NCBI GenBank assembly: GCA_024762475.1
Contig: JANTHJ010000018.1
Location: 1-39,346, forward strand
DNA length: 39,346 nt
DNA from: Chromatiales bacterium
GTDB lineage: Bacteria > Pseudomonadota > Gammaproteobacteria > Chromatiales > Chromatiaceae
Direction: 5' to 3'
The notes beneath the pieces are model-generated. The model did not search any database and had not been told where the DNA came from. It was given only the letters and a program-made list of their open reading frames with translations. The position numbers and the translations under genes were made by a program. Positions 1,050 through 27,032 of the stretch are shown here, piece after piece; within the stretch, counting starts at the first letter, position 1, and each line of letters starts with the position of its first letter.

Positions 1050-2738
1050 ATGGATGCGCCAAGCTCGCTGGACGCCCCACCCGCACTGCTGCTGTCGATC
1101 GGCCCGCAAGAGCCATTGTGGCTGGTGCTGGCCTTTCTCCTGGGTCTGCTGGTCAAGCGCTTCGGGCTGCCCGCGCTCACCGGATATATTCTCGCAGGGT
1201 TCATACTCCACGCCGCGGGCGCAAAAGGGGGCGCTTTCCTCGACCAGGTAGCCGACCTGGGCATAACCCTGCTGCTGTTCACCATCGGTTTGAAGCTCCG
1301 GCTGTCGCTGCTCGCCTCGCCCGCCGCCTGGGGGGTGGCCAGTGCTCATATGCTGCTGATGAGCGCGATCAACGCGCTGTTTCTTGGCGCACTGCATGCG
1401 CTGGGGCTGATTCCCGGCGAGCTCTCCACCGGCACCCTGATGCTCGCCGGTTTCGCGCTGTCGTTTTCGAGCACCGTGTTCGCGGTCAAGATCCTCAATG
1501 AGCTGGGCGCCGAGGGCTCGCGACACGGCAACCTGGCAATCGGCGTGCTCATCATGCAGGACATTGCAGCCGTGGCCTTTCTCGCGGCCTCGTCCGGAAA
1601 AATCCCCTCGATCTGGGCAGTCGGGCTGCTGGCCCTGCCGATCCTGCGCCAACCCATCGGCTGGCTGCTCGCGCGCACCGACCATGGCGAGCTGATGATT
1701 CTGTTCGGCGTCGTGCTCGCACTGGCCGGTGCCGACCTGTTCGAATTGGTCGGCATCAAGGGCGACCTGGGGGCGCTGGCGGCCGGGATGCTGGTGGCCA
1801 GCCATCCGAAGGCTGACGAGCTGGCAAAGAGCCTGCTCGGCTTCAAGGACCTGTTCCTGGTCGGTTTCTTCCTCTCGGTCGGGATGACCGCCCTGCCGAG
1901 CTGGGAGAGCCTGATGCTCGCCAGCCTGCTGATGCTGCTCCTGCCCCTCAAAACCATGCTCTACTTCTTTCTGTTCCTGCTCGCACGCATTCGCGCGGGC
2001 AACGCCTGGCGTGCGGCCTCCAACCTGGCCAACTACAGCGAGTTCAGCCTCATCGTCGGCAGTGTTGCCGTTGCCTCCGGGTGGCTCGACCCCCAGTGGA
2101 TTGCCGTATTCGCCATTGCGCTTTCCCTCTCCTACATCCTCGGCGCCCCGATCATTGCCGTCCGTGATCAGCTGTACCGGCAGTGGCGCCCTCTGCTGAA
2201 GCGGATGGAACATCCGATCCGCGTGGCAGGCGAGGAGGATCTGAGCCTCGGACCGACCCATATTGCCGTGTTCGGCATGGGCCGGATCGGCACCAGCGCC
2301 TACGACCGCCTCGACCAGGCCTTGCCGGGTGCGGTGGTGGGGGTGGATTTCGACGACGAGAGAATCGAAGCTCAACAGGCTCGGGGGCGCCATGTGGTCC
2401 GAGGCGATCCCACCAACCCCGATTTCTGGACCCGCCTGCGAGATGGCGTCTCGAATATCGAATGGATATTGCTCGCCCTGCCCAGCCACCAGGCCAATCT
2501 GATGACACTTGCTCGCCTGCACGAGACCGGCTACCAGGGCCGGATCGCCGCCACAAGCCGCCATCCCGATGAGGCAGAGGCCCTGCGCGAGCGCGGTGTC
2601 CATTTGGTCTACGACCTCTATCAGGAGGCGGGCCAGGGCTTTGCCGACGCGGTCGAAGACGTCATATTCAAGGGAGAACCCCGGGCGCACGATCGACCCG
2701 GCATGCGCTCCCCCACACAACCGGAGGAACATCCATGA
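1050..2738 (+). CDS. Kef-type monovalent cation:proton antiporter (CPA2) with TrkA-N domain
   Basis: A 562-residue inner-membrane antiporter of the CPA2/Kef family, expected to exchange K+ or Na+ for H+. About twelve hydrophobic helices fill residues 18-375, with the intramembrane QD pair (IMQDIAAV, about 168-175) typical of KefB/KefC-like proteins and an SVGM motif near 276. A cytosolic Rossmann-type TrkA-N domain follows, with GMGRIG at 409-414 and an acidic residue after the second strand (VGVDFDDERI), which suggests NAD(H) or nucleotide gating. It resembles the YbaL/RosB branch more than glutathione-gated KefB/C, but I cannot settle the ion or ligand. The start is ATG 1050; no strong Shine-Dalgarno sequence precedes it. 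Its stop overlaps the mogA start as ATGA (2735-2738), so the two are probably co-translated. Confidence 0.88.
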   Translation: MDAPSSLDAPPALLLSIGPQEPLWLVLAFLLGLLVKRFGLPALTGYILAGFILHAAGAKGGAFLDQVADLGITLLLFTIGLKLRLSLLASPAAWGVASAHMLLMSAINALFLGALHALGLIPGELSTGTLMLAGFALSFSSTVFAVKILNELGAEGSRHGNLAIGVLIMQDIAAVAFLAASSGKIPSIWAVGLLALPILRQPIGWLLARTDHGELMILFGVVLALAGADLFELVGIKGDLGALAAGMLVASHPKADELAKSLLGFKDLFLVGFFLSVGMTALPSWESLMLASLLMLLLPLKTMLYFFLFLLARIRAGNAWRAASNLANYSEFSLIVGSVAVASGWLDPQWIAVFAIALSLSYILGAPIIAVRDQLYRQWRPLLKRMEHPIRVAGEEDLSLGPTHIAVFGMGRIGTSAYDRLDQALPGAVVGVDFDDERIEAQQARGRHVVRGDPTNPDFWTRLRDGVSNIEWILLALPSHQANLMTLARLHETGYQGRIAATSRHPDEAEALRERGVHLVYDLYQEAGQGFADAVEDVIFKGEPRAHDRPGMRSPTQPEEHP

Positions 2739-3268
2739 ACCTCGCCAAGATCGGCATTCTCACCGTCTCCGACCGCGCCAGCCGCGGTGAATACGAAGAC
2801 CTGGGCGGCCCGGCCATCCGCGACTGGCTGGACAAGGCCCTCGCCTCGCCCTGGGAGGATGTGGCACGCCTGGTCCCGGACGAGCAGGACCAGGTCGAGG
2901 CCGTATTGGGCGAGCTATGCGACGAGGAACATTGCTGTCTGGTGGTCACCACCGGGGGCACCGGACCCGCCCCGCGCGATATCACCCCAGAGGCCACCGA
3001 GGCGGTATGTGAGAAGATGATGCCCGGCTTCGGCGAGCTGATGCGCTCGGTCTCGCTGCAGTATGTGCCCACCGCGATCCTGTCGCGCCAGACCGCCGGT
3101 ATCCGGGGCCAATCCCTGATCGTCAACCTGCCCGGCAAGCCCAGCGCCATCGCCGATTGCCTCGAAGCGGTCTTCCCCGCCATCCCCTACTGCATCGACC
3201 TGATCGGCGGGCCGCGTCTGGAGACCCAAGAAGCGTTCATCAAGGCCTTTCGGCCCAAGGGGGCCTGA
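2735..3268 (+). CDS. mogA: Molybdopterin adenylyltransferase
   Basis: MogA adenylates molybdopterin before molybdate insertion, late in molybdenum cofactor synthesis in the cytosol. The 177-residue protein matches single-domain MogA in length. It starts with a Rossmann-like strand, ILTVSDRASRGEYEDLGGP (8-26), carries the molybdopterin-binding TTGGTGPAPRD (72-82), and ends with MRSVSLQYVPTAILSRQ and LIVNLPGKPSA, both diagnostic of MogA rather than MoaB or the MoeA domain. ATG 2735 overlaps the antiporter stop by four bases and has GGAGG at 2723-2727. The coupling to an antiporter gene is unusual but may be only positional. The downstream DUF2789 gene is convergent with a 10-base gap. Confidence 0.93.
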   Translation: MNLAKIGILTVSDRASRGEYEDLGGPAIRDWLDKALASPWEDVARLVPDEQDQVEAVLGELCDEEHCCLVVTTGGTGPAPRDITPEATEAVCEKMMPGFGELMRSVSLQYVPTAILSRQTAGIRGQSLIVNLPGKPSAIADCLEAVFPAIPYCIDLIGGPRLETQEAFIKAFRPKGA

Positions 3269-3278
3269 GGCCGGCTGG

Positions 3279-3515
3279 TTACTTGTGCAACAGGGCGTTG
3301 AGTTCGTCGATCACCTCGGCCCAGTCGGCATCCTTGCGCAACCCCTCACGCAGAAACTCGGCCTGCGCGGGGTTCCAGAAGGGCGCCTCCTCGATCGGTT
3401 GATCGGGGCCAAGGGAATGGCTGGCGATGAATTGGTCGATCGATTCGGGATCGTCGGGCAGGCCGAGCTGTTCGAACAGGCCGGCCAGATCGTAGACCGG
3501 TTCTTCCAGGGTCAT
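3279..3515 (-). CDS. DUF2789 family small protein
   Basis: A 78-residue acidic protein with no known function that matches the DUF2789 family of gammaproteobacteria (PF10982, from memory). Characteristic features are the N-terminal LFEQLGLP segment, the central APFWNPAQAEFLREGL stretch and the C-terminal DADWAEVIDELNALLH. It lacks a signal peptide and membrane segments, so a cytosolic helical protein is expected. I chose ATG 3515 because GGAGG sits about seven bases upstream and because family homology begins there; the open frame runs further upstream to 3626 but passes through the terminator hairpin at 3553-3584 and is not believable. The terminator isolates this gene from the minus-strand genes to its right, so it must have its own promoter within about 40 bases. 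Confidence 0.85.
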   Translation of the reverse strand: MTLEEPVYDLAGLFEQLGLPDDPESIDQFIASHSLGPDQPIEEAPFWNPAQAEFLREGLRKDADWAEVIDELNALLHK

Positions 3516-3552
3516 CGGGCATCCTCCGGGCAGGGTTCTGCAAAGACTACAT

Positions 3553-3584
3553 AAAAAAGGGCCCACGATGGGTATCGTGGGCCC
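3553..3584 (-). terminator. Rho-independent terminator, minus strand
   Basis: A perfect 11-bp stem, GGGCCCACGAT with ATCGTGGGCCC, encloses a four-base loop at 3570-3573. Read on the minus strand it is followed directly by six T residues (3558-3553). On the plus strand there is no T tract, so it works in the minus direction only. It ends transcripts arriving from the sulfotransferase and membrane-protein genes and lies 38 bases upstream of the DUF2789 start. Confidence 0.88.
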
Positions 3585-4016
3585 GAAGGGCGCTAATTCA
3601 AGCGCCGGAGGAGGATCGGAGAGCAAACATGAAGTTCACTGTCGCTACCCTTAACGGCTGCCTCGACAGATCCTTTAGAACTTTTTTCGATATTTTTCCG
3701 GGGAGCGCCAAGCCCAGTCCTACCAGGTTTGCCGACCTCACCCGGGAGCCCTGGGCTCTCAACGACCACAGGAGGTCCTACAGGGAGGTCGACCGGACGC
3801 ACCGAAACACGGGGCATGGGCTCTTCTGCCGCGAGAGTACGTCGGGCAGACGAAACCTCGTACAAACCGCAAGAGACCCAGTGGCTCAAGACGATCGCGC
3901 CAGAGCAGGCCATCGTACTTTCGGATAGCCTGCCTTGCATCGAATCGTTCGAATACACCCTGAATTCAAACAACACCGTGGCCCTACACCTCCACGAGCA
4001 TCCCATGGGGGATACC
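3585..4016. other. Unresolved stretch; two overlapping candidate reading frames
   Basis: No recognisable gene. On the minus strand an open frame from ATG 4006 to the stop at 3593 would encode 137 residues, rich in Cys, Ser, Arg and Pro, with a short Gly-x-y-like run (GLPGEVGKPGRTG); its stop lies nine bases before the terminator, which favours a minus-strand transcript ending here. On the plus strand an open frame from 3729 or 3816 gives a more protein-like stretch around 3867-4040 (TQWLKTIAPEQAIVLSDSL), but it runs on to 4178 antisense to the membrane-protein gene. The two frames share their third codon positions, so GC-rich wobble does not tell them apart. A perfect palindrome CTCAGGCCTGAG at 4016-4027 overlaps the stop of the next gene. 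It may be a decayed gene or an untranslated tail. Confidence 0.3.
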
Positions 4017-4611: not shown

Positions 4612-4713
4612 GTTGCGGATCTTCGCAATAGCCTTCCGTTATGTGCGATCCGTGCCTTGAACCTGGCGAGTATTTACATGATCCACTCGCGTCAGAGTCA
4701 ATCAGAAGTTCCC
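4612..4713 (-). repeat. Diverged, partial copy of the inverted-repeat element also found at 6945-7106
   Basis: Read on the minus strand from 4713, the sequence begins GGGAACTTCTGATTGA and continues with a block that matches 6945-7047 with one single-base gap. In the best 44-base block (GGATCGCAC and CTATTGCGAAGAT included) I count 37 identities by hand. The right half of the element, including its second terminal repeat, is not recognisable on the other side. The copy straddles the 3' end of the sulfotransferase gene and the 5' end of the membrane-protein gene. Confidence 0.75.
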
Positions 4714-5945
4714 AAATAGGCTTGAAATGACTCATTGTAGTCGGAGAAACGCTCCAGAATGGCCTGCTGAGACAGCCCAAAATCCTCCGGGGAATATCGA
4801 TGTACCCCGTGTTTGTTCTTTGGATTCTCCGACAGATAGGCTTGCATGCTCGATCTCGCCTCTTGTGTCAACTCAAGACCGAAGTGGTCATACATGTCCT
4901 GTATTGCCCCTATTGGATCACTTACCAGATCCCGGTAACCAAGATCGAAAAATGAATGCGAAGGCAAAGAAGTCCGATCGGTCAGATACCGCCCCATATC
5001 GGTAGACAACCGGCCCAACACCTGTCGTCCAAGTTCCCGAATATCGATGGAATGATAATATACACCCCTGTATACGAGGTTCAGACTTGCCCATGATGAA
5101 ACCGAATTGACCGGGTTTCTATGTATGTGGACGAAGCATGCATCTGGGTAGACCTCAAGAATGGAACGAACTGCTGCCAGGTGGTCGGGGGATTTCAGCA
5201 GCCATCGCCTACCTGGATATTTCCATTGAAGCGCTTGCAACACACGCCTATGGTAACGGTATGTCGGTCCATGATCTGCCTGATCGAGCCAACGTGAATA
5301 TTCGGGCACATCGAATCCCCCGACCAATGCCTGGGTCGCGAAGCCCTGCATGAGAATCGGCGTACATTCCTCGGGCCCTTTCGGAGTAAAGGCGTGCACC
5401 TTGTCTATTTCAGGCATCAGGTATTTTAGGAATCGCTGCATCCATCTTGCTTGTCTTATCCTTGGGTCGGTCGCTTCCGTATACCGACCCTTGGGCGGTA
5501 CTTGCGAAATGAAGGCCTCCCAGTTCCTCAGAAATCGGTGATCCGGATCCTGTGCGAGCAGATTGAATAGCAAGGTGGTTCCACTTCGGGGCAAACCAAG
5601 CACGATTATGGGTCGGGCAATGTCTTGAGAGAGTATTTCAGGATGCTGGCGCACCAGATTCACGTTCCTCAGGCGATGCATCAGCATCTGAATCACCATC
5701 TGTCGGACATAGAATCGTCCGAAGGGATGATGGGTACGTACTTGCCGAAAAGCGGCAAGGAGCGCCTTCAGTCCCGCCTCGAATCCATTGCCGCCAAAAT
5801 CTTTCAGGCCAGTCTTTCCCATGGCCGCATGGGTAATCTCGTCGAACGAGAACGACCTTTTGTCCATTTTTTCCCGCGAGAGAAGGTTCCAGGCCCGTAT
5901 CAGCAACGGCTGGGGCGGCCTGATCAGGTTGTTTTGCTTTGACAC
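4698..5945 (-). CDS. PAPS-dependent sulfotransferase family protein
   Basis: A 415-residue member of the Sulfotransfer_3-type family, expected to move sulfate from PAPS to a hydroxyl or amine of a glycan, lipid or small molecule; the substrate is unknown. The 5'-phosphosulfate loop is VLGLPRSGTTLL (115-126). A LLKSPDHL motif (249-256) and the 3'-phosphate site FVHIHRNPVNSVSS (271-284) follow in the usual order. There is no signal peptide or membrane helix. The start is GTG 5945, preceded by GGAGGAG with about nine bases between. The final residues LGTSD and the TGA stop fall inside the end of the inverted-repeat element copy at 4612-4713, so the natural C-terminus may have been replaced. GC content is visibly lower than in neighbouring housekeeping genes. 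The membrane-protein gene downstream may be a partner. Confidence 0.88.
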   Translation of the reverse strand: MSKQNNLIRPPQPLLIRAWNLLSREKMDKRSFSFDEITHAAMGKTGLKDFGGNGFEAGLKALLAAFRQVRTHHPFGRFYVRQMVIQMLMHRLRNVNLVRQHPEILSQDIARPIIVLGLPRSGTTLLFNLLAQDPDHRFLRNWEAFISQVPPKGRYTEATDPRIRQARWMQRFLKYLMPEIDKVHAFTPKGPEECTPILMQGFATQALVGGFDVPEYSRWLDQADHGPTYRYHRRVLQALQWKYPGRRWLLKSPDHLAAVRSILEVYPDACFVHIHRNPVNSVSSWASLNLVYRGVYYHSIDIRELGRQVLGRLSTDMGRYLTDRTSLPSHSFFDLGYRDLVSDPIGAIQDMYDHFGLELTQEARSSMQAYLSENPKNKHGVHRYSPEDFGLSQQAILERFSDYNESFQAYLGTSD

Positions 5946-16193: not shown

Positions 16194-17063
16194 ATGACTC
16201 CCGGAAATGGGAAGCAACGGTTCAAGCGCATCCAACTGGCACCGGGGTTCCTTGCCCTCTGGCTGGTCCTCTCCTGCGCCAGCGCATCCGCGAGCATCCT
16301 TTCCCTGGCGATCTTTCCCTACTTTTCACCCGAACAGCTGGTCACCCTGCACAAGCCGCTCAAGGACTACCTGGCCCGCGAGACGGGGCTGAAGCTACGC
16401 CTGGTCTCGGCGGCCGATTTCAAGGCCTTCAAAGGGCGTACTGCGGCTGGCCGCTACGATCTCCTGATCACCGCCCCCCACCTCGGCAGACTGGCCGAGA
16501 AGCAGGCAGGCTACCGCTGGCTGGCGGTGACCAGCAATTATTCGGAGGCGGTGTTCGTCGCGCGCCGCGACAGCGGCCCTCAGGACCTTGCAGACCTGAA
16601 AGGCCGCCGCCTGGCCCTGCCGCCTCGGCTCGCCATCATCCACCAGATGGCCCTGGAAACCCTGGAAAAAGGGGGGCTGCAAGCGGGGCGCGATGTCACG
16701 ATCGTCCCGCGCAGGTCACATGATCACGCCTTGTACGCTGTGCTTCTCGGCGAAACGGACGCAGCGGCCATCGGCCGTCCCACTTGGCTGCGCTACCGGG
16801 CGCCGGAGAAACGCTCGCTGATGGTGATCGGGCGGTCCGAGCACATTCCCGGCTTTGCCATCATGGCTCACCCTCGCCTGGCCAGCGCGACGGTAGAGCG
16901 CCTGCGCCGGGCCCTCTACGCCTTCCCGTCGACGCCCGAGGGCAAGGCCTATTTCGACGCCACCGGCCTGGAGGGCGTGCGGCCGATCACCGAGCAGGAC
17001 CTGAACCTGCTGGATCACTACCTGGCGCGTATCCGCGCAGCACGAGAGGCTAGAGGAAAGTGA
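16194..17063 (+). CDS. PhnD-like periplasmic substrate-binding protein, orphan
   Basis: A 289-residue exported protein of the phosphate/phosphonate-binding (PhnD-like, Pfam Phosphonate-bd) family. A basic start (KQRFKR) is followed by a hydrophobic signal segment (about 17-33). The mature part shows SLAIFPYFSPEQLV, YDLLITAPHLGRLAE, SEAVFVARRDS and LKGRRLALPPRLAI, the pattern of this family's two lobes. No ABC permease or ATPase gene lies near it. The gene instead overlaps a transmembrane GGDEF-EAL gene by four bases (GTGA, 17060-17063), so it more likely works as a receptor subunit than in uptake. ATG 16194 has GAGGA seven bases upstream. The ligand is unknown and need not be a phosphonate. 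Confidence 0.88.
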   Translation: MTPGNGKQRFKRIQLAPGFLALWLVLSCASASASILSLAIFPYFSPEQLVTLHKPLKDYLARETGLKLRLVSAADFKAFKGRTAAGRYDLLITAPHLGRLAEKQAGYRWLAVTSNYSEAVFVARRDSGPQDLADLKGRRLALPPRLAIIHQMALETLEKGGLQAGRDVTIVPRRSHDHALYAVLLGETDAAAIGRPTWLRYRAPEKRSLMVIGRSEHIPGFAIMAHPRLASATVERLRRALYAFPSTPEGKAYFDATGLEGVRPITEQDLNLLDHYLARIRAAREARGK

Positions 17064-19891
17064 GGCCGGCACTCTCCCGATCCCTGACGCTGCGCATTCT
17101 GCTGCCGGTAATCGGCGTGCAGTTGCTGGTCTTCAGCGCGGGTGGCTGGGTGCTGGACCGGGCCATGCAGCGCTATGCCTTTGCCGAGTTTCAGCGTCAG
17201 CTGCTCCCCGTCGAGGCACTACTCAACACCGCGTTGGCACCGCCCCTGTTCAGCGAGGACATCGGCTCGCTCAAACGCCGTGCCCGAGAGGTCTTGGCAG
17301 AGAATGCTCTCCTGGAATGGATCCTCATCGACGATCCACAAGACCGCCTGCTGGTCCACGCCGGCCCCGCGCCCGATCACGAACCGGCCGCCTCGCCAGA
17401 TCTCCCCGGGGCCCTCGCCTCCGGGCGGTATGTCGACGCCCTACCCGTCCGCATCGCCGGCGAGACCGTTGGGCACGTCCACGTGGGCCTGCGCCTCGAC
17501 GCCCTGCAGGACTACCTCTCCGGTCAGCGGCGGGCGCTGGTCGCGGTCGGGCTGGCAGCCCTGCTGGTATCGACATTCCTGACAGGACTACTCGTGTGGT
17601 GGCGTACACGCCAGTTGCGGGAGCTGGGCAGCGCCGTCGAATCGGTAACCCGGGGCGAGCAACCGGCGACCCTCCCGGTGCGCCAGGAAGATGACATGGG
17701 CCAGCTGGTACGGGCCTTCAACACCATGTCCCAGACCGTGGCCGAGCGTACCTCTGCGTACGAAAAGGAACACAACCGTCTGCGTGCGATCGCCGACTAC
17801 ACCTTTGCCTGGGAGATCTGGATCGACACCCAGGGACGCCTGGTGTGGACCAACCCATCATCCCTGCGGGTCACCGCTTACACCGCGGAGGAGCTGATGG
17901 ACATGCCCGATTTCCCCGCGCCTCTCCTGAGCGAAGTCGGGGGTGTCGAAGAGGGCGTCTGGCAGAAGATCCTCAGAGAGGATGAGGGCGCTGGTATCGA
18001 GTGTCCCCTGCGACGCGGCGACGGCGAGCAGGTGTGGGTTTCTGTCTACTGGCAGCCGCTGCGCGACAGCGGCGGACGGATATTGGGCAAACGGGCATCC
18101 TTCGTCGATGTGACGGCCCGTCACCAGGCCCAGGAGCGGCTGCAGCAGTCACTGGCGGAACTGCGTGCCAGCGAGACCCGGCAGCAGGAGCTGCTGGTGC
18201 AGGCGCAGAACACCCAGGCACGCTTCCGCGCCCTGCTGTCCGCGATGAACCTGGGCATCCTGTTCGAGACCCCCGACCGACGGGTCGAGTACGTCAATCC
18301 CGCCTTCCTGGAGATGTGGGCGCTGGACCCGGAAACCCCGCTGATCGGCCGGCCCGTGGTCGAAGTGCTCGAACATTCCCGGCATGCCTTTGCGCGTCCG
18401 GCGCACAGTTCGCGCGAGGTGCTGCGCATCGAGAATACCCACGAGACCAGCGAGCAGTTCGAGATTCAGCTCGCGGACGGGCGCATCCTGACCCAGATCT
18501 CCTATCCGGTGCATGACGAAGAGCTGCGCAACATCGGACGCCTATGGCTCTACGAGGACGTGACCAACGAGCGCCAGACCGCCGAGCAGCTCATCTACCT
18601 GGCCGAACGCGACTCGCTCACCGGGCTGTACAACCGACATCGCTTCGAGATGGAAATGGAGCGCATGATCGGTATGGCCGAACGTTTCGATCACCGTTTC
18701 GCCCTGCTCTATTTCGACCTGGACGAGTTCAAATACATTAACGACACCTACGGACACCGCGAGGGCGACACCGTGCTGACCCGTATTGCGGGAGAGCTCA
18801 CCCAGGTGGTTCGCAAGAACGACGTGCTGGCACGCCTGGGGGGAGATGAGTTTGCCATCATCACCCTGATCGACAAGGACATCGACGAGGTGCGGCGACT
18901 CGCCCATCGTATCGTGAGCGCCGTAGCCAGCATTCCACTGCGCTTCCGCAACCAGAACATCCGCATGACAACCAGCGTGGGTATCGCCATCTATCCCGAC
19001 ATGGCCCGCGATACCGAGGCGCTGGTGGCCCAGGCGGACGCCGCCATGTATCAGGCCAAGGCCCAGGGCAAGAACACCTGGTCCATCTACGACAAGGAGC
19101 GCGATGCCACCGCCACCATGATGGCGCATATGACCTGGACCCAGCGCATCGAGCACGGGCTGGAGAACGATCTGTTCGAGCTGCACTTCCAGGGGGTCTA
19201 CCGGGTCAGGGACCGGAGCCTGTCGCATCTCGAGGCACTGGTGCGGCTGCGCGACGCGGACGAGCCGGGCAAACTGTACATGCCGGGCCAGTTCATCCCC
19301 ATCGCAGAGAAAAGCGGCAAGATCCTGGCGATCGACCAGTGGGTGGTGCAAAGGGTCATCACGCTGCTGGGCGAGCGCCCCGACATGCCGCCCGTGGCGG
19401 TCAACATATCCGGCCGGTCCTTCGACGACCCTTCGCTGCCCCAGCGTATCCGGCGCTGGCTGGGCGATCGAGGGGTGGCCCCGCAGCGATTGCAGGTGGA
19501 ACTGACCGAGACCGCCGCCGTATCCGACATCCAGGATGCGCAACGCTTCATCGAGGCATTGCACCAGACCGGCTGTACCGTGTGCCTGGACGACTTCGGC
19601 GCGGGCTTCTCTTCTTTTGCCTACCTAAAACACATTGCGGCCGACGTGCTCAAGATCGACGGCCAGTTCATCCACGACCTGCCCAACAACCCGGAGAACC
19701 AGATCTTCCTGCGGGCCATGCTCGACGTGGCCACCGGCCTGCGCAAGACCACGGTCGCCGAGTTCGTCGACAGCGAGGCGGTGTTCGACATGCTGGGGGA
19801 CTTCGGCATCGACCTGGCCCAGGGTTATTACCTGGACAAGCCCCGCGCCGACCATCCGGCACTGGATGCCGCGGACGCGGCCGCTTCCTGA
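17060..19891 (+). CDS. Transmembrane HAMP-PAS-PAS-GGDEF-EAL protein (c-di-GMP turnover)
   Basis: A 943-residue inner-membrane sensor for cyclic di-GMP. The order is helix 1 (12-33), a periplasmic domain of about 125 residues, helix 2 (158-180), HAMP (181-234), PAS (about 240-355), PAS (about 384-505), GGDEF (about 510-680) and EAL (about 695-935). The GGDEF motif is intact (594-598) and an RKND inhibitory site (585-588) sits five residues before it. In the EAL domain the metal and base residues are present: E725 of EAL, N782, E817, D844-D845 and K865; the usual EGVE loop reads EFVD (901-904) and the family's YQPI start reads FQGV. Both synthesis and hydrolysis are therefore possible. The start is GTG 17060 with AGAGGA before it. 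The partner is the PhnD-like protein just upstream. Confidence 0.93.
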
Positions 19892-22005: not shown

Positions 22006-22458
22006 TCAGCCCGAGAAGCCATCCGGCCGGCACGTCGGAATGATCTCCGATCGACGCAGGGCCTCGGCGAGCAGTCCCGGCAGGGCCTGCGGCCAATCGT
22101 CTCCCAGGCCGATCAGGGTCAGGCGGGGGGGTAGCAGGCCCAGCGCCTCGCCCAGGCGCAGCGCCTCGGCCACCGAGAACCCGTGGGCCGAGCAGCCCGC
22201 ATCTCGACTTACCGCCAGCTGATCGAGCGTCAGCAGGCGCGTCCCGGCGCCGGGGTCCGCCAAGGCATCCAGCAGCACCGCGCCCGCCCTTCCGCGCAGC
22301 GCGGGCAGCAGGTCGAGGGCCGGGTGTTCGATGCACAGCAGTTCGGCAGACAAGGCGCCGTCAGGAGATAGCGTCGGTTGCAGTTGCTCGAGCGCCCGCC
22401 AGCCCAGGTCGTCCCCCGGCTGCCCGGAACCGATACCGGCGATCAGCAGTCGTTTCAC
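22006..22458 (-). CDS. NiFe hydrogenase maturation protease (HycI/HyaD family, M52)
   Basis: A 150-residue endopeptidase expected to trim the C-terminal tail of the hydrogenase large subunit once nickel is in place. The N-terminus LLIAGIGSGQPGDDLGWRAL contains the family's GxGNxxxxDDGxG-like motif, here GIGSGQPGDDLGW, with the Asp that binds nickel; ELLCIEHPALDLLPAL and VLLDALADPG hold the second acidic site. HGFSVAEALRL is the usual third block. The start is GTG 22458, overlapping the large-subunit stop (22455-22457), so the two are co-translated. This is the only maturation gene here; the hyp genes for the Fe(CN)2CO and nickel steps must be elsewhere. Confidence 0.88.
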   Translation of the reverse strand: MKRLLIAGIGSGQPGDDLGWRALEQLQPTLSPDGALSAELLCIEHPALDLLPALRGRAGAVLLDALADPGAGTRLLTLDQLAVSRDAGCSAHGFSVAEALRLGEALGLLPPRLTLIGLGDDWPQALPGLLAEALRRSEIIPTCRPDGFSG

Positions 22459-23753
22459 CGGCGTTCGGTACGCAGTCTCAGGAAATGGGTGGCGCAGGAG
22501 ATGCAGGGATCGTAGTTGCGGATCACCATCTCGGCGCGCAGGCGCAATGCCTCATCATCGTGCGCCAGCCCGAAGGATTCCAGGCTTTCGCGCAGATCGC
22601 GTTCGATGCGCGCCTGATTCTGGCTGGTTGGCGGCACGATGCGCGCCTCCTGCACCCGGCCGGCTTCGTCGAATCGGTAGCGATGCCAGAGCAGCCCCCG
22701 GGGCGCCTCGGTGGCGCCGTAGCCGACCCCGGCTCGCGGCGTCAGCGACACTGCCGTCACCTTCGGTGGATGGTAGTCGCGCAGCAGGCGAACCGCCTCG
22801 TGCAGGGCCAGCAGGATCTCTACCGCGCGCGCCACGATGCTATGGAACATGTTGCGGCTGGGGAAGGCGATGCCGGTTCGGGCGAGGGCTTCGGCCACCG
22901 GGGACGGCAAGCGGTCTTGATTGAGATTCAAGCGGGCCAGGGGGCCCACCAGGTAGTCCCGTCCCTGTAGCCGGGAGAACAGCGCGGTGGAATGGGGGCG
23001 CTGGTATTCCTCGAAGTGCATTTCGTACTCGCTCACTGCGATGTCCAGGCCCTCGCTGGAGACGATACGGCCGCTGTAGAGGGGATATTCTTCCGGATGC
23101 CGCAGCGCCACCGAGACGAAGTCCTGCGCCTGTTGCGGCAACGGCAGGGCCGCGGTCCAGGCCAACAGGGCCTCGGCCTCGGCCAGGGCCGCCTCCAGCC
23201 GCGGCAACAGCGCGCTCACCGCCTGCGGATCGGGGGCCCTGTGAAAGCCCCCTGGCGCGACCCCGATGGGGTGGACCGAACGGGCGCCGAACAGCCGCAT
23301 CAGTTCGTTTCCGAGGCCCTGCAGTTGCAGGCCGCGGCGCAGCGCATCGGGATACTCAGCGGCCATCGCCAGCGCGCTCTCGTATCCCAGGAAGTCGGGC
23401 GCCGCCAGCAGATGGATGTGCAGTGCATGGCTCTGGATCCATTCGCCGCAGTAGAAGGCCCGGCGCATCGCCCTCACCCACCCGTCCTGCTCGGCACCGA
23501 AGGCATCCTCGATGGCCTGACTGGCGCTCATCTGGTAGGCCGCCGGGCAGATGCCACAGATCCGCGCCACTGCATCGATCAGCTGCTGCGGATCCCGGCC
23601 CTCGAGCAACTTCTCGAAATAGCGCGGCGGCTCGAAGATCGACAGCGCCAGGTGCTCGATGCGATCGTTTTGGATGCGCAGCGCCAGCGCACCCTCCCCC
23701 TCCACCCGCGCCAGCGCGGGCACGCTGATCTCGACCCGACGGCCCTCAGGCAT
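22455..23753 (-). CDS. hydA: Group 3b NiFe hydrogenase, large (alpha) subunit
   Basis: The catalytic subunit holds the NiFe(CN)2CO site. The two cysteine pairs are present: RICGICP (64-70) with Cys66 and Cys69, and DPCISCATH (415-423) with Cys417 and Cys420. The nine residues after His423 form the peptide removed by the maturation protease encoded next door. The length of 432 and the companions beta, gamma and delta place it in group 3b (soluble NADP-linked, also called sulfhydrogenase) rather than group 3d or a membrane uptake enzyme. The start is ATG 23753; the frame runs further upstream but homology begins at MPEGRRVEIS. It overlaps the small-subunit stop by eight bases. Confidence 0.93.
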   Translation of the reverse strand: MPEGRRVEISVPALARVEGEGALALRIQNDRIEHLALSIFEPPRYFEKLLEGRDPQQLIDAVARICGICPAAYQMSASQAIEDAFGAEQDGWVRAMRRAFYCGEWIQSHALHIHLLAAPDFLGYESALAMAAEYPDALRRGLQLQGLGNELMRLFGARSVHPIGVAPGGFHRAPDPQAVSALLPRLEAALAEAEALLAWTAALPLPQQAQDFVSVALRHPEEYPLYSGRIVSSEGLDIAVSEYEMHFEEYQRPHSTALFSRLQGRDYLVGPLARLNLNQDRLPSPVAEALARTGIAFPSRNMFHSIVARAVEILLALHEAVRLLRDYHPPKVTAVSLTPRAGVGYGATEAPRGLLWHRYRFDEAGRVQEARIVPPTSQNQARIERDLRESLESFGLAHDDEALRLRAEMVIRNYDPCISCATHFLRLRTERR

Positions 23754-24543
23754 CGTCCTTCTCCCGCTGTGCGCGCCAGGCCGTGCCCACCGTGCGGAAG
23801 GGCTCGGCGTGGCTGTGGATGAACAGGAAGTGCCGGGCGATGGCCTCGGGCAACAGGCCCAGACCCTCGAAGCGCCGGGCCAGTGCGTCGCCATTGGGAT
23901 TTTCCGCCGGCCCATAACAGCCATAGCAGTCGCGTCCGAAGGCCGGACAGAGCGCACCGCAGCCGGTATGGGTGACCGGTCCCATGCAGGGCACCCCGCG
24001 CGTCACCAGGGTACAGACCCGCCCTTGGCGCTTGCATTCCAGGCACACCTTGTCCGCATCCTCGATCGGCGGCACCCCGTGCAGCAGCGAGGCGATGGCG
24101 CCGAGGATCTGGCGACCATTGATGGGGCAGCCCCACAGCTCCAGATCGACCGCCACATGTTCGCGCACCGGCGTGGCCTGGTCCAGGCTGTCGATGAATT
24201 CGGGCCGGGCATAGATGGCCTCCCGCCAGGCCCGCTCGCTCCGATCGAGATTGCGCAACGCCTGCAACCCTCCCGAGGTGGCGCAGGCGCCGATGGTCAC
24301 CAGGTAGCGACTGTGCTCGCGCACCCGCGCGATCCGCTCGGCCTCCTCGGCGGTGGAGATGCTCCCCTCCACGAAGGCGATGTCCACCGGCGCCTCGGGA
24401 TCACTGGGGCCGGCCTCCAGGAAATGCACGATCTCCACCGCCTCTTGCAGGGCAAGCAGGGATTCGCCGAGGTTCAACAGCGCCAGCTGGCAGCCATCGC
24501 AGGAGCTGAACTTGTGCACCGCCATCTTCGGTTTCCCAGACAT
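23746..24543 (-). CDS. hydD: Group 3b NiFe hydrogenase, small (delta) subunit
   Basis: This 265-residue subunit carries iron-sulfur clusters that pass electrons from the NiFe site to the flavin subunit. The proximal-cluster motif starts FSSCDGCQLALL (12-23), followed by EGSISTAEE, TIGACATSGGLQ, and WGCPINGRQ. Further cysteines in CLECKRQGRVC and CGALCPAFGRDCYGCYGP can hold two more clusters. There is no twin-arginine signal, so the enzyme is cytoplasmic, in line with group 3. ATG 24543 lies three bases after the gamma stop; the in-frame ATG seven codons later is an alternative start. Identity with other group 3b small subunits is clear from motif order. Confidence 0.92.
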   Translation of the reverse strand: MSGKPKMAVHKFSSCDGCQLALLNLGESLLALQEAVEIVHFLEAGPSDPEAPVDIAFVEGSISTAEEAERIARVREHSRYLVTIGACATSGGLQALRNLDRSERAWREAIYARPEFIDSLDQATPVREHVAVDLELWGCPINGRQILGAIASLLHGVPPIEDADKVCLECKRQGRVCTLVTRGVPCMGPVTHTGCGALCPAFGRDCYGCYGPAENPNGDALARRFEGLGLLPEAIARHFLFIHSHAEPFRTVGTAWRAQREKDDA

Positions 24544-24546
24544 GGC

Positions 24547-25380
24547 TCAGAACCCCCGGATGCCCAACAAGGACGCCACCGCGGGCCAGGCGAACACCGG
24601 CCCGTCCCGGCACACGAAGTGCGGCCCCAGTTGGCAGTGACCGCATTGGCCGATCCCGCAGTGCATGTTGCGCTCCATGCTCAGATAGATGTCCGGGCCG
24701 GCCATCCCGCGCTCCAGCAGCATCCTGCCGGCGGCGACCATCATCGGCTCGGGGCCGCACATCATCGCCAGGGATCCCGCCAGCGCGTCTTCGATCTGCT
24801 CGAACAGCTCGGTGATCAGCCCACGATGCCAGGGCCAGTCGGGGGTCGCCACGTCGGCCGCCAGCAACACCTGGGTATCCGGCTCGCGGGCCCAGGCCTC
24901 GTACTGCCCCCGCCACAACAGGTCGTTGCTGTGCTTGACCCCCTGCAGAATCGTCAGCCGGCCGAAGCGTTCCCGCCGACGCAGCACATGCCGAATCACC
25001 GACACCGCCGGCGCACAACCCAGGCCGCCGGTGACCACCACCAGGTTGCGTCCCTCGGCCTCCGCCAGTGGCCAGCCCCGCCCAAAGGGGCCGCGGACTC
25101 CGAGGCGGTCACCGGGTCGCAGCCGTACCAGGGCGCGTGTAACCCGGCCAACTGCGCGCACGGTATGGTCGAACAAGCGCACATCCTCGATATCCGAGAC
25201 GATGGAGATCGGTACCTCGCCAATACCGTGCAGCGCGAGCATGTTGAACTGCCCCGGCGCGAAACGATAGGCGTCGTGACGGGCGGGATCGGTCAGTCGC
25301 AGCCGCAGTGTATGGGTGTCGCCGGTCTCCGCAACACATTCGACCACCTCCGCCTCCCTGGGCAGCCAGGCCTCAGTCAT
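24547..25380 (-). CDS. hydG: Group 3b hydrogenase, FAD/NAD(P)-binding (gamma) subunit
   Basis: A 277-residue ferredoxin-NADP reductase-type protein that links the hydrogenase to NAD(P)H. The FAD domain fills about 1-105 ([19 protein letters not shown]), the nucleotide domain about 110-230 ([28 protein letters not shown]), and the C-terminus carries a [2Fe-2S] site with Cys241, 246, 249 and 257. This layout equals that of HydG in archaeal sulfhydrogenase and of the related PyrK and AsrB proteins. The start is ATG 25380, with GGGAGAGG upstream, overlapping the beta stop by eight bases. Whether NADP or NAD is used cannot be read from the sequence. Confidence 0.92.
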
Positions 25381-26476
25381 GGACCTCTCCCAGAATGGCG
25401 TCCACCTCTGCGGTGAGATCGATCCCGACCGGACACCAGCTGATGCAGCGCCCACAGCCCACACAGCCGATTCGCCCGTACTGGACCTGCCACCCCGCCA
25501 GCTTGTGGGTCAGCCACTGGCGGTAGCGCTGGGCCGTCTGCGCACGCAGCGGGCGACCGTGCAGCAGGCTGTGGGCTGCACTGAAGCAGGAATCCCAGAC
25601 CCGCGCATGGCCCGACCGGGACGGGTCGAGCGCCGGCGTCTCTGCGTGGCGGTGGCAGAAGCAGCTGGGACATACCGCGGTGCAGTTGCCGCAGGAGAGA
25701 CAGCGCTCGGCCACCTCCTCCCAATGGGGATCAGTGGCGGCCTGCATCAATTCGGCCAGTCTCGCGGGCGCGGGAAGGCGCCGCTGCTGTACCTCGGCGG
25801 CCCTGGCCTGCTGCGCCTCTGCGGCGGCCCGCTGCCCGGGTGCGACCGGTAGGGTCTGCAACGCCTCGAACACCGCCTGGCCCGCATCGCTGCCCACCTC
25901 CACGATGAAACCCTCGTCCAGCTCGTGCAGCGCCAGATCGAACCCAGCACCACAGCTCGGGCCGTCTCCGGTGCTGGCGCAGAAACAGGTCTCGGCCGGG
26001 TGGGTGCAATGTACTGCCACCAGAAACAGGCCTTCGCGCCGCGCTGCATACCAGGGGTCGCCGGGCTCCTCGAGAAAGTGCGCATCCTGCAACGCCAGCG
26101 CCGCCAGATCACAGGCGCGCACGCCGATCACCGCCAGCGAACTCGGTTTAGCCGGTACCGGATGGAACTGAAGGCTGCCATCGGGGTCCCGCACGGAATG
26201 CCACATGGGCTGTTCGGGCTCGAACACCAGCGGCTTGAGGGCCTGTGGCCCGTTCGCCCAGGCAAAGGCGCGTTCGCTGTCGCCGAACTCGAGCCGGTAG
26301 CTGCCGGGCCGCTGTCGGTCAAGGTAGCCGAAGGGCAGCTGCTCTGCCCGCTCCAAAGAGGCGAACACGATGGCCTCATCTCGCACCTGGGGACCGAGGC
26401 AGTCGGCGTGCTCGCGGCGCAACCGGTCGATCAGTCGTTGCAGGTCTGCACGTGGCAGGAATCCGGATTGGTTCAA
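25373..26476 (-). CDS. hydB: Group 3b hydrogenase, 4Fe-4S (beta) subunit, AsrA/HydB-like
   Basis: A 367-residue electron-transfer subunit related to AsrA of anaerobic sulfite reductase. A unique N-terminal domain (about 1-250) includes [17 protein letters not shown] and [16 protein letters not shown], with conserved cysteines. Two [4Fe-4S] motifs follow: Cys259, 262, 265, 269 ([11 protein letters not shown]) and Cys338, 341, 344, 348 ([12 protein letters not shown]). I chose TTG 26476 because GGAGGAG lies five bases before it and no ATG or GTG is nearby; the frame runs upstream to 26749 without sense. It is the first gene of a beta-gamma-delta-alpha-protease operon, the order known for archaeal hydBGDA. 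Confidence 0.9.
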
Positions 26477-26488
26477 GCGGTCTCCTCC

Positions 26489-26502
26489 GGGGCTATCGCC
26501 CC
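26489..26502 (-). promoter_or_regulatory. Small hairpin next to the hydrogenase ribosome-binding site
   Basis: On the minus strand GGGGC (26502-26498) pairs with GCCCC (26493-26489) around a four-base loop, directly before GGAGGAG of the hydB start. It could affect access of ribosomes to the TTG start. Its role is inference from position only. Confidence 0.35.
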
Positions 26503-26549
26503 AACGTATAGCACAGCACTTGTATCGGTGGGAGCGAACTGGCCGCGCC

Positions 26550-26563
26550 TTGACCTGCGACAA
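26550..26563. promoter_or_regulatory. FNR/CRP-like palindrome upstream of the hydrogenase operon
   Basis: TTGACCTGCGACAA has two half-sites, TTGAC and TTGTC in reverse, spaced as in FNR-type boxes, and differs from TTGAY-N4-RTCAA at one defining position. It lies 74 bases upstream of hydB and about 100 bases from the divergent DUF971 gene. A weak GATACA hexamer lies at the spacing expected for a class II activated promoter reading toward hydB. Anaerobic control would suit a group 3b hydrogenase, but the match may be chance. Confidence 0.25.
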
Positions 26564-26660
26564 GGGCGGCCACACCACTACCTCCCCGGTCAGGGGGTGA
26601 AATGGGCCACGCGACTGGGGGACAATAGGCCATCGATATCGCGACATTGGAAAACAAGAC

Positions 26661-27032
26661 ATGCTCAATACCCCGAACCCGACCGAACTCAATCTGCACC
26701 GTCTGTCACGGGTGCTGGAGATCAGTTTCGACGATGGCAGCAACTTCAAACTGCCCGCGGAATACCTGCGGGTCTACTCCCCCTCGGCCGAGGTCGCCGG
26801 ACATGGCCCGGGGCAACGCAAGGTGCCGCTGGGCAAGGAGAACGTGGGCATCGACCGGCTCGAGCCGGTCGGCAACTATGCCATCCAGATCGTGTTCGAC
26901 GACGGCCACGACACCGGCATCTATTCCTGGGAAACCCTGTACAATCTGGGGAAACATTACGACGACCTCTGGGCGTCCTATCTCGAGGAGCTGAAGGAGA
27001 AAGGCTATACCCGTAAGGAGCCGGCCTCCTGA
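26661..27032 (+). CDS. DUF971 family protein (gamma-butyrobetaine hydroxylase N-terminal-like)
   Basis: A 123-residue soluble protein of the DUF971 family, which matches the small N-terminal domain of gamma-butyrobetaine hydroxylase. Diagnostic stretches are LEISFDDGSNFKLPAEYLRV, SPSAEVAGHG, and DDGHDTGIYSWETLYNLG near the C-terminus. Stand-alone bacterial members are often linked to iron-sulfur cluster work, but this remains a family-level guess. It precedes ubiE by 12 bases, the conserved order in many gammaproteobacteria, where hslU usually lies just upstream. Here the divergent hydrogenase operon stands between. ATG 26661 has only a weak ribosome-binding site. Confidence 0.88.
   Translation: MLNTPNPTELNLHRLSRVLEISFDDGSNFKLPAEYLRVYSPSAEVAGHGPGQRKVPLGKENVGIDRLEPVGNYAIQIVFDDGHDTGIYSWETLYNLGKHYDDLWASYLEELKEKGYTRKEPAS

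Follow-up and report, generated by a model that had tools for sequence, protein, structure and literature searches.

A binding-protein gene overlapping a GGDEF-EAL gene

The window, a 39,346-nt stretch of Chromatiales DNA, carries two overlapping genes on its forward strand. The first (16194–17063, from ORF and profile searches) encodes a PhnD-like, type II periplasmic binding protein of family PF12974. It starts with ATG at 16194, stops at 17061–17063, and specifies 289 residues headed by an N-terminal signal sequence. Together with a strong PF12974 match (E=4.2e-49; 167.6 bits, above the curated Pfam cut-off of 27), these features bear out the signal-bearing PhnD-like protein of the original prediction. 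The protein scores below the NCBIfam cut-offs for both the ABC subfamily (TIGR01098; 58.5 versus 112) and PhnD (TIGR03431; 49.6 versus 261). Pfam did not find the polyamine-binding family (PotD/SBP_bac_8) in it, but PF12974 instead. Its second-best PDB match is ArrX. The sole cysteine, residue 28, lies inside the signal sequence, leaving the mature part cysteine-free. The gene is under purifying selection, with dN/dS about 0.2–0.3. An AlphaFold model built from four sequences reached a pLDDT of 54, at which the pocket is not interpretable.

The second gene (17060–19891, start GTG at 17060) encodes the partner, a membrane-bound GGDEF-EAL receptor of 943 residues. Its layout is transmembrane (TM) helix, PAS/Cache-like periplasmic domain, TM helix, HAMP, PAS, PAS, GGDEF, and EAL. 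The periplasmic domain (residues about 39–160; 17174–17539), located between the two TM helices, is predicted to adopt a single PAS/Cache-like fold (pLDDT about 90), for which Foldseek returned WalK, CitA, and the LapD-type periplasmic output domain 4u64 as matches. Profile searches placed HAMP at residues 183–226 (17606–17737), the PAS domains at residues about 253–356 (17816–18127) and about 388–508 (18221–18583), GGDEF at residues 516–672 (18605–19075), and EAL at residues 695–928 (19142–19843). The GGDEF motif is intact (18839–18853), and five residues before it stands a canonical I-site, RKND (18812–18823). Domain search and alignment thus agree with the earlier description of a periplasmic domain, HAMP, two PAS domains, and an intact GGDEF with its RxxD site. 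The EAL domain of that description is also present, but calling it near-complete was too weak: every catalytic residue aligns with the RbdA and MorA structures, namely, the E of EAL, the N of NISG, the E of ELTE, the DD of DDFG, the K of LKID, the E of AEFV, and the Q of AQG. The only departure lies in the usual AEGVE, whose second E is D here. By sequence, the GGDEF and EAL domains both appear catalytically competent. The best PDB match of the partner is RbdA (PA0861; E=7e-86), and its score against the LapD equivalog NF045673 is well below that model's cut-off (183 versus 1020 bits).

The two genes share a four-base stop/start overlap, GTGA (17060–17063), exactly as predicted, and translational coupling across it is likely. 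The same overlap occurs in two orthologues, and ATGA or TTGA is found in two paralogous pairs. Upstream of the pair lie what we take, from their translations, to be dapF, a DUF484 gene, and xerC, and downstream hslV and hslU; this gene order was confirmed across relatives. No ABC gene lies near the pair, and a profile search of its contig (C18) gave no PhnC-type ATPase match, in keeping with the original prediction, which noted neither an ABC permease nor an ATPase nearby. A scan of the locus for sigma-70 promoters returned nothing scoring above shuffled sequences. Elsewhere in the window, on the reverse strand, a NiFe-hydrogenase large-subunit gene with genes for NAD-binding and 4Fe-4S subunits (22455–26749) is likely a soluble NAD(P)-linked hydrogenase operon, and a sulfotransferase-family gene (4698–5945; PF13469, E=9e-43) sits close to hemC-hemD-hemX.

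Conservation and loss of the pair within the genus

We compared the locus across eight genomes of the genus, some of them fragmented assemblies. Orthologues of the pair occur in four further genomes at 74, 68, 67, and 56% identity, two of the sources being Chromatiaceae bacterium CTD079 and Gammaproteobacteria bacterium Milos-ODIII6. In all four orthologous loci the partner follows the binding-protein gene, although in one (G004) the contig ends inside the partner. A contig scan with the orthologue alignment recovered three same-genus loci and no others. In a tree of five flanking proteins, the genomes bearing both genes (five of eight) are spread over each of the three main branches, which indicates that the pair is ancestral in the genus. 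Conservation in relatives, the point on which the original prediction had agreed to be judged, was thus found, and the pairing also recurs in other families.

The remaining genomes have lost different parts of the system. In G007, xerC directly precedes hslV and both genes are gone, although its sister G006 keeps both. In G001, the sister of G002, the binding protein is gone and only a partner remnant is left: an internally deleted gene (L108, contig C382, about 2334–3720, reverse strand) in which two TM helices lead into a GGDEF domain that has lost its beginning and reads DGDEF, followed by an EAL domain that is intact. This remnant has lost the periplasmic domain, HAMP, PAS, and the integrity of GGDEF while keeping all EAL catalytic residues, and it suggests that, once sensing goes, the phosphodiesterase is what is worth retaining. 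The same genome holds elsewhere two tandem PhnD-like genes ahead of one GGDEF-EAL gene (L067, contig C388, 1816–5658). Finally, G005 has a full-length partner about 80 bp from xerC with no binding-protein gene between them, and no orthologue of the binding protein was found elsewhere in that genome. Within the genus, then, the binding protein never occurs without the partner, and in one case the partner has persisted after loss of the binding protein. The pairing is thus not obligate; since G005 keeps the full-length partner alone, the partner can presumably act in some way without the binding protein.

Conservation within the partner is lowest in the periplasmic domain, at 38–77% identity among full-length orthologues versus 82–85% for GGDEF-EAL. 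Twenty-seven positions of this domain do not vary among the five orthologues that are paired. G005 alters seven of these, and five of the seven lie within residues 63–71 (17246–17272), a membrane-distal turn after the long first helix, where LFSEDIGSL in the window becomes IHAKDIDTI. The equally placed G002, given the same treatment, has five altered positions, and these are scattered. The clustering has a hypergeometric P of about 0.04, a hand-worked and post hoc value from one genome. We offer residues 63–71 as a candidate docking site for the binding protein, as a lead only.

PF12974 proteins and their binding pockets

The source genome (G000, 3.01 Mb) encodes six PF12974 proteins, and the surroundings of all six were read. 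Four of the genes, on contigs C18 (the window's), C67, C78, and C41, are each directly followed by a gene for a membrane HAMP-GGDEF-EAL protein, with a GTGA, TTGA, or ATGA start/stop overlap in three of the four pairs. Another, on C11, precedes a PAS-PAS histidine kinase gene, with a REC-GGDEF-EAL gene nearby, and the sixth is a LuxR fusion, so that every one has a signalling link. None is adjoined by an ABC gene, and no PhnE permease or PhnC ATPase scores above its family cut-off anywhere in the genome (best PhnE, 22.9 versus 216.7 bits). The search for a PhnCE transporter that could use the binding protein thus left the receptor interpretation standing. The 32 GGDEF domains among about 2,900 genes (a number estimated from the genome's length) lead one to expect a GGDEF neighbour for about 1% of genes. 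The observed four of six (roughly P=1e-7) is therefore far beyond chance. In this respect the original prediction has to be corrected: the pair is no isolated case but one of many, with four such pairs in this genome and recurrence throughout the class.

Two of these loci have features of their own. The LuxR fusion (L018, contig C70, 5132–6997) joins PF12974, a TM helix, a GAF-like region, and a LuxR-type helix-turn-helix in one chain, and resembles a one-component regulator that is anchored in the membrane and senses through its PhnD part. The pair on C67 (L016, 2823–7336, reverse strand) is followed, with overlapping ends, by genes for a PiT (PHO4) permease and a DUF47/PhoU-like protein, which may mean that the C67 pair responds to a phosphate-related signal. 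We rejected phosphate as the ligand of the window pair, however, because such surroundings appear at no other fetched locus and the C67 protein belongs to another clade.

To place the family more broadly, 140 genomes were drawn evenly from the class Gammaproteobacteria; 64 contain PF12974 proteins at E<=1e-15. Sixty loci were fetched and sorted by simple ORF and profile (HMM) rules, which left 3 unresolved. Among the 57 sortable loci, PF12974 genes neighbour GGDEF(-EAL) genes in 15 cases, histidine kinases in 27, ABC genes in 5, and nothing assigned in 10; one locus with an ABC operon on the opposite strand (L131) is a kinase in this tally and ABC-linked in the tree and motif counts below. This survey of co-occurrence had been proposed as a check on the original prediction, and it extends the pairing well beyond the genus. 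The 15 GGDEF-linked cases are adjacent or fused, with the GGDEF gene upstream in four. These four reversed loci (L146, L148, L158, and L169) come from four families, and their PhnD-like proteins have in common a deletion at the anion-motif region. Single-chain fusions of PF12974 to GGDEF (L083) and to GGDEF-EAL (L165) also occur.

A tree of 105 PF12974 domains requires 34 changes of neighbour type, versus 51 with shuffled labels, which indicates that the type of output (diguanylate cyclase [DGC] or histidine kinase) is partly inherited yet often exchanged. The transport clade of PtxB, which clusters with ABC-linked genes, stands apart. The sister of the window clade is L173, a GGDEF-EAL-linked protein from another family.

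Phosphite and phosphonate binders grip the ligand oxygens with an S-T-S motif and a histidine (PMC5700983), and AioX has two serines and the histidine in common with them (PMC5908839). In the window protein, alignment places PPRLAIIH (residues 143–150; 16620–16643) where the anion-binding S-T-S motif would be; the motif is absent. The loss is common to all orthologues, which have PPRLAIIH or a near-identical sequence there. The ligand histidine of PtxB, H160, has its aligned counterpart in His176-Asp177 ("SHD"; 16719–16724), which is kept. Counting the site as kept when at least two Ser/Thr occupy the three motif columns, it persists in 7/8 ABC-linked, 16/36 kinase-linked, and 6/41 DGC-linked proteins, and in none of the five of the window clade. 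The difference between DGC- and kinase-linked proteins gives a Fisher P of 0.005, or 0.03 in the class sample alone (1/15 versus 11/26), values that are optimistic because the sequences are related. Since the window clade has lost S-T-S entirely, phosphonate, phosphite, and other oxyanions held in that way are improbable as its ligand, and most binding proteins in c-di-GMP-linked pairs probably sense something other than phosphonate. The absence of cysteine from the mature protein argues against arsenite binding of the AioX type. Two known roles were accordingly rejected for the window protein: that of a PhnD transport protein for phosphonate or phosphite, because PhnC and PhnE fall below cut-off, S-T-S is lost (the histidine being kept), and the NCBIfam scores are too low; and that of an AioX/ArrX/ArxX arsenic sensor, because the Cys106-type cysteine and the Ser161/Ser163 motif are missing. 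The different ligand class foreseen for this pair relative to NspS is supported twice, by the different binding-protein family and by the loss of that family's own anion site.

We give even chances to a wider proposal with two parts: that gammaproteobacterial PF12974 proteins are mainly interchangeable periplasmic receptors for histidine kinases and GGDEF-EAL proteins, and that the c-di-GMP-linked pockets, including the window's, have been remodelled for a class of ligand new to the fold.

A probable two-part c-di-GMP receptor

The locus has the composition of a c-di-GMP receptor coupled to a binding protein: a secreted protein of binding-protein fold is encoded together with a GGDEF-EAL protein that has a periplasmic domain. 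We think it probable that the two genes specify a two-part receptor of the NspS-MbaA kind, built on another binding-protein family, in which ligand-dependent docking switches the balance between DGC and phosphodiesterase activities. The secreted PhnD-fold protein would capture a small ligand in the periplasm and, in one of its two states, dock on the partner's PAS/Cache-like domain, on the side away from the membrane. The resulting change would be relayed through the TM helices, HAMP, and the two PAS domains to set synthesis by GGDEF against hydrolysis by EAL, with hydrolysis most likely the default. Ligand binding, physical contact, and the direction of the switch are what we infer here, the last from the NspS-MbaA precedent and the G001 remnant. 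The analogy drawn in the original prediction is largely supported by the overlap, the intact enzymes, the missing transporter, the conservation, and the loss of S-T-S.

Direct ligand binding is common among single Cache domains. The partner might therefore sense alone, through its own Cache-like domain or its cytoplasmic PAS domains, with the PhnD-like protein modulating it by no more than scavenging or buffering the ligand. G005, where the partner occupies the corresponding locus and no orthologue of the binding protein was found, fits such an arrangement, and the two PAS domains might receive another input, separate from the first. However, four separate pairs in one genome and recurrence across the class are hard to reconcile with an incidental binding protein, as is the fact that it never outlives the partner; moreover, the G005 changes cluster at residues 63–71, as though a contact there had disappeared. 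We regard sensing by the partner alone as unlikely.

The other alternatives separate the binding protein from its neighbour. It could serve an ABC transporter encoded elsewhere, the adjacency being accidental, as its match to a family named for phosphonate transport might imply. Given subfamily and PhnD scores below cut-off, a genome devoid of PhnE and PhnC matches above cut-off, the missing S-T-S, and a pairing conserved in 4/4 orthologous loci, this seems very improbable. It could also serve another membrane receptor, a different GGDEF-EAL protein or a kinase, besides or instead of its neighbour; the genome does encode six PF12974 proteins and five separate adjoining membrane receptors, and output types have often been exchanged in evolution. 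The gene overlap and the co-loss with its own partner leave little room for this. The two-part receptor is thus the reading we carry forward.

It is useful to set this receptor beside known systems. NspS is a polyamine-binding protein of the PotD-like family; the window protein belongs to PF12974, and its partner, unlike MbaA, has two PAS domains between HAMP and GGDEF. LapD and YfiN/TpbB resemble the partner in having a small, membrane-flanked periplasmic domain, of which the LapD type is a fold match, and they are touched there by the periplasmic proteins LapG and YfiR, respectively. LapD, however, has degenerate enzyme domains and signals inside-out, whereas both active sites of the partner are intact. 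RbdA has a similar PAS-GGDEF-EAL cytoplasmic part, and no binding-protein partner is known for it. The NspS-MbaA pairs of Vibrio cholerae and Sinorhizobium meliloti combine a periplasmic binding protein with an inner-membrane GGDEF-EAL protein (PMC8967002, PMC9993111); liganded NspS associates with the receptor and tips it towards the cyclase, and the receptor on its own acts as a phosphodiesterase (PMC8967002). This precedent, cited in the original prediction, holds, but it is not the only one. For ScrB-ScrC of Vibrio parahaemolyticus, one operon encodes both the periplasmic protein that binds the ligand and a bifunctional GGDEF-EAL protein (PMC10269520), although it includes a signal-synthesis gene, scrA, that has no counterpart at this locus, and the likeness drawn here is one of layout. 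AioX, ArxX, and ArrX have the PhnD fold and serve signalling, not transport (PMC5908839), but their output is a histidine kinase, and the AioX pocket residues Ser161, Ser163, and Cys106 are all absent from the window protein. TtrS and ThsS also use a PhnD-like periplasmic sensing module (PMC5408782), in their case as part of the histidine kinase and for tetrathionate and thiosulfate. A search of a library of open-access papers found no described pairing of a PhnD/PF12974 protein with GGDEF or c-di-GMP. Within those papers, the combination of this fold with a GGDEF-EAL output, and its frequency, appear to be undescribed.

Few membrane c-di-GMP enzymes have a known signal. In this system the sensory part is soluble and separate, so that it lends itself to purification and to ligand screening, and the genus offers genomes that have naturally lost the binding protein alone, the sensory half, or both genes. 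More broadly, many genes annotated as "phosphonate ABC transporter substrate-binding protein" are likely to encode sensors.
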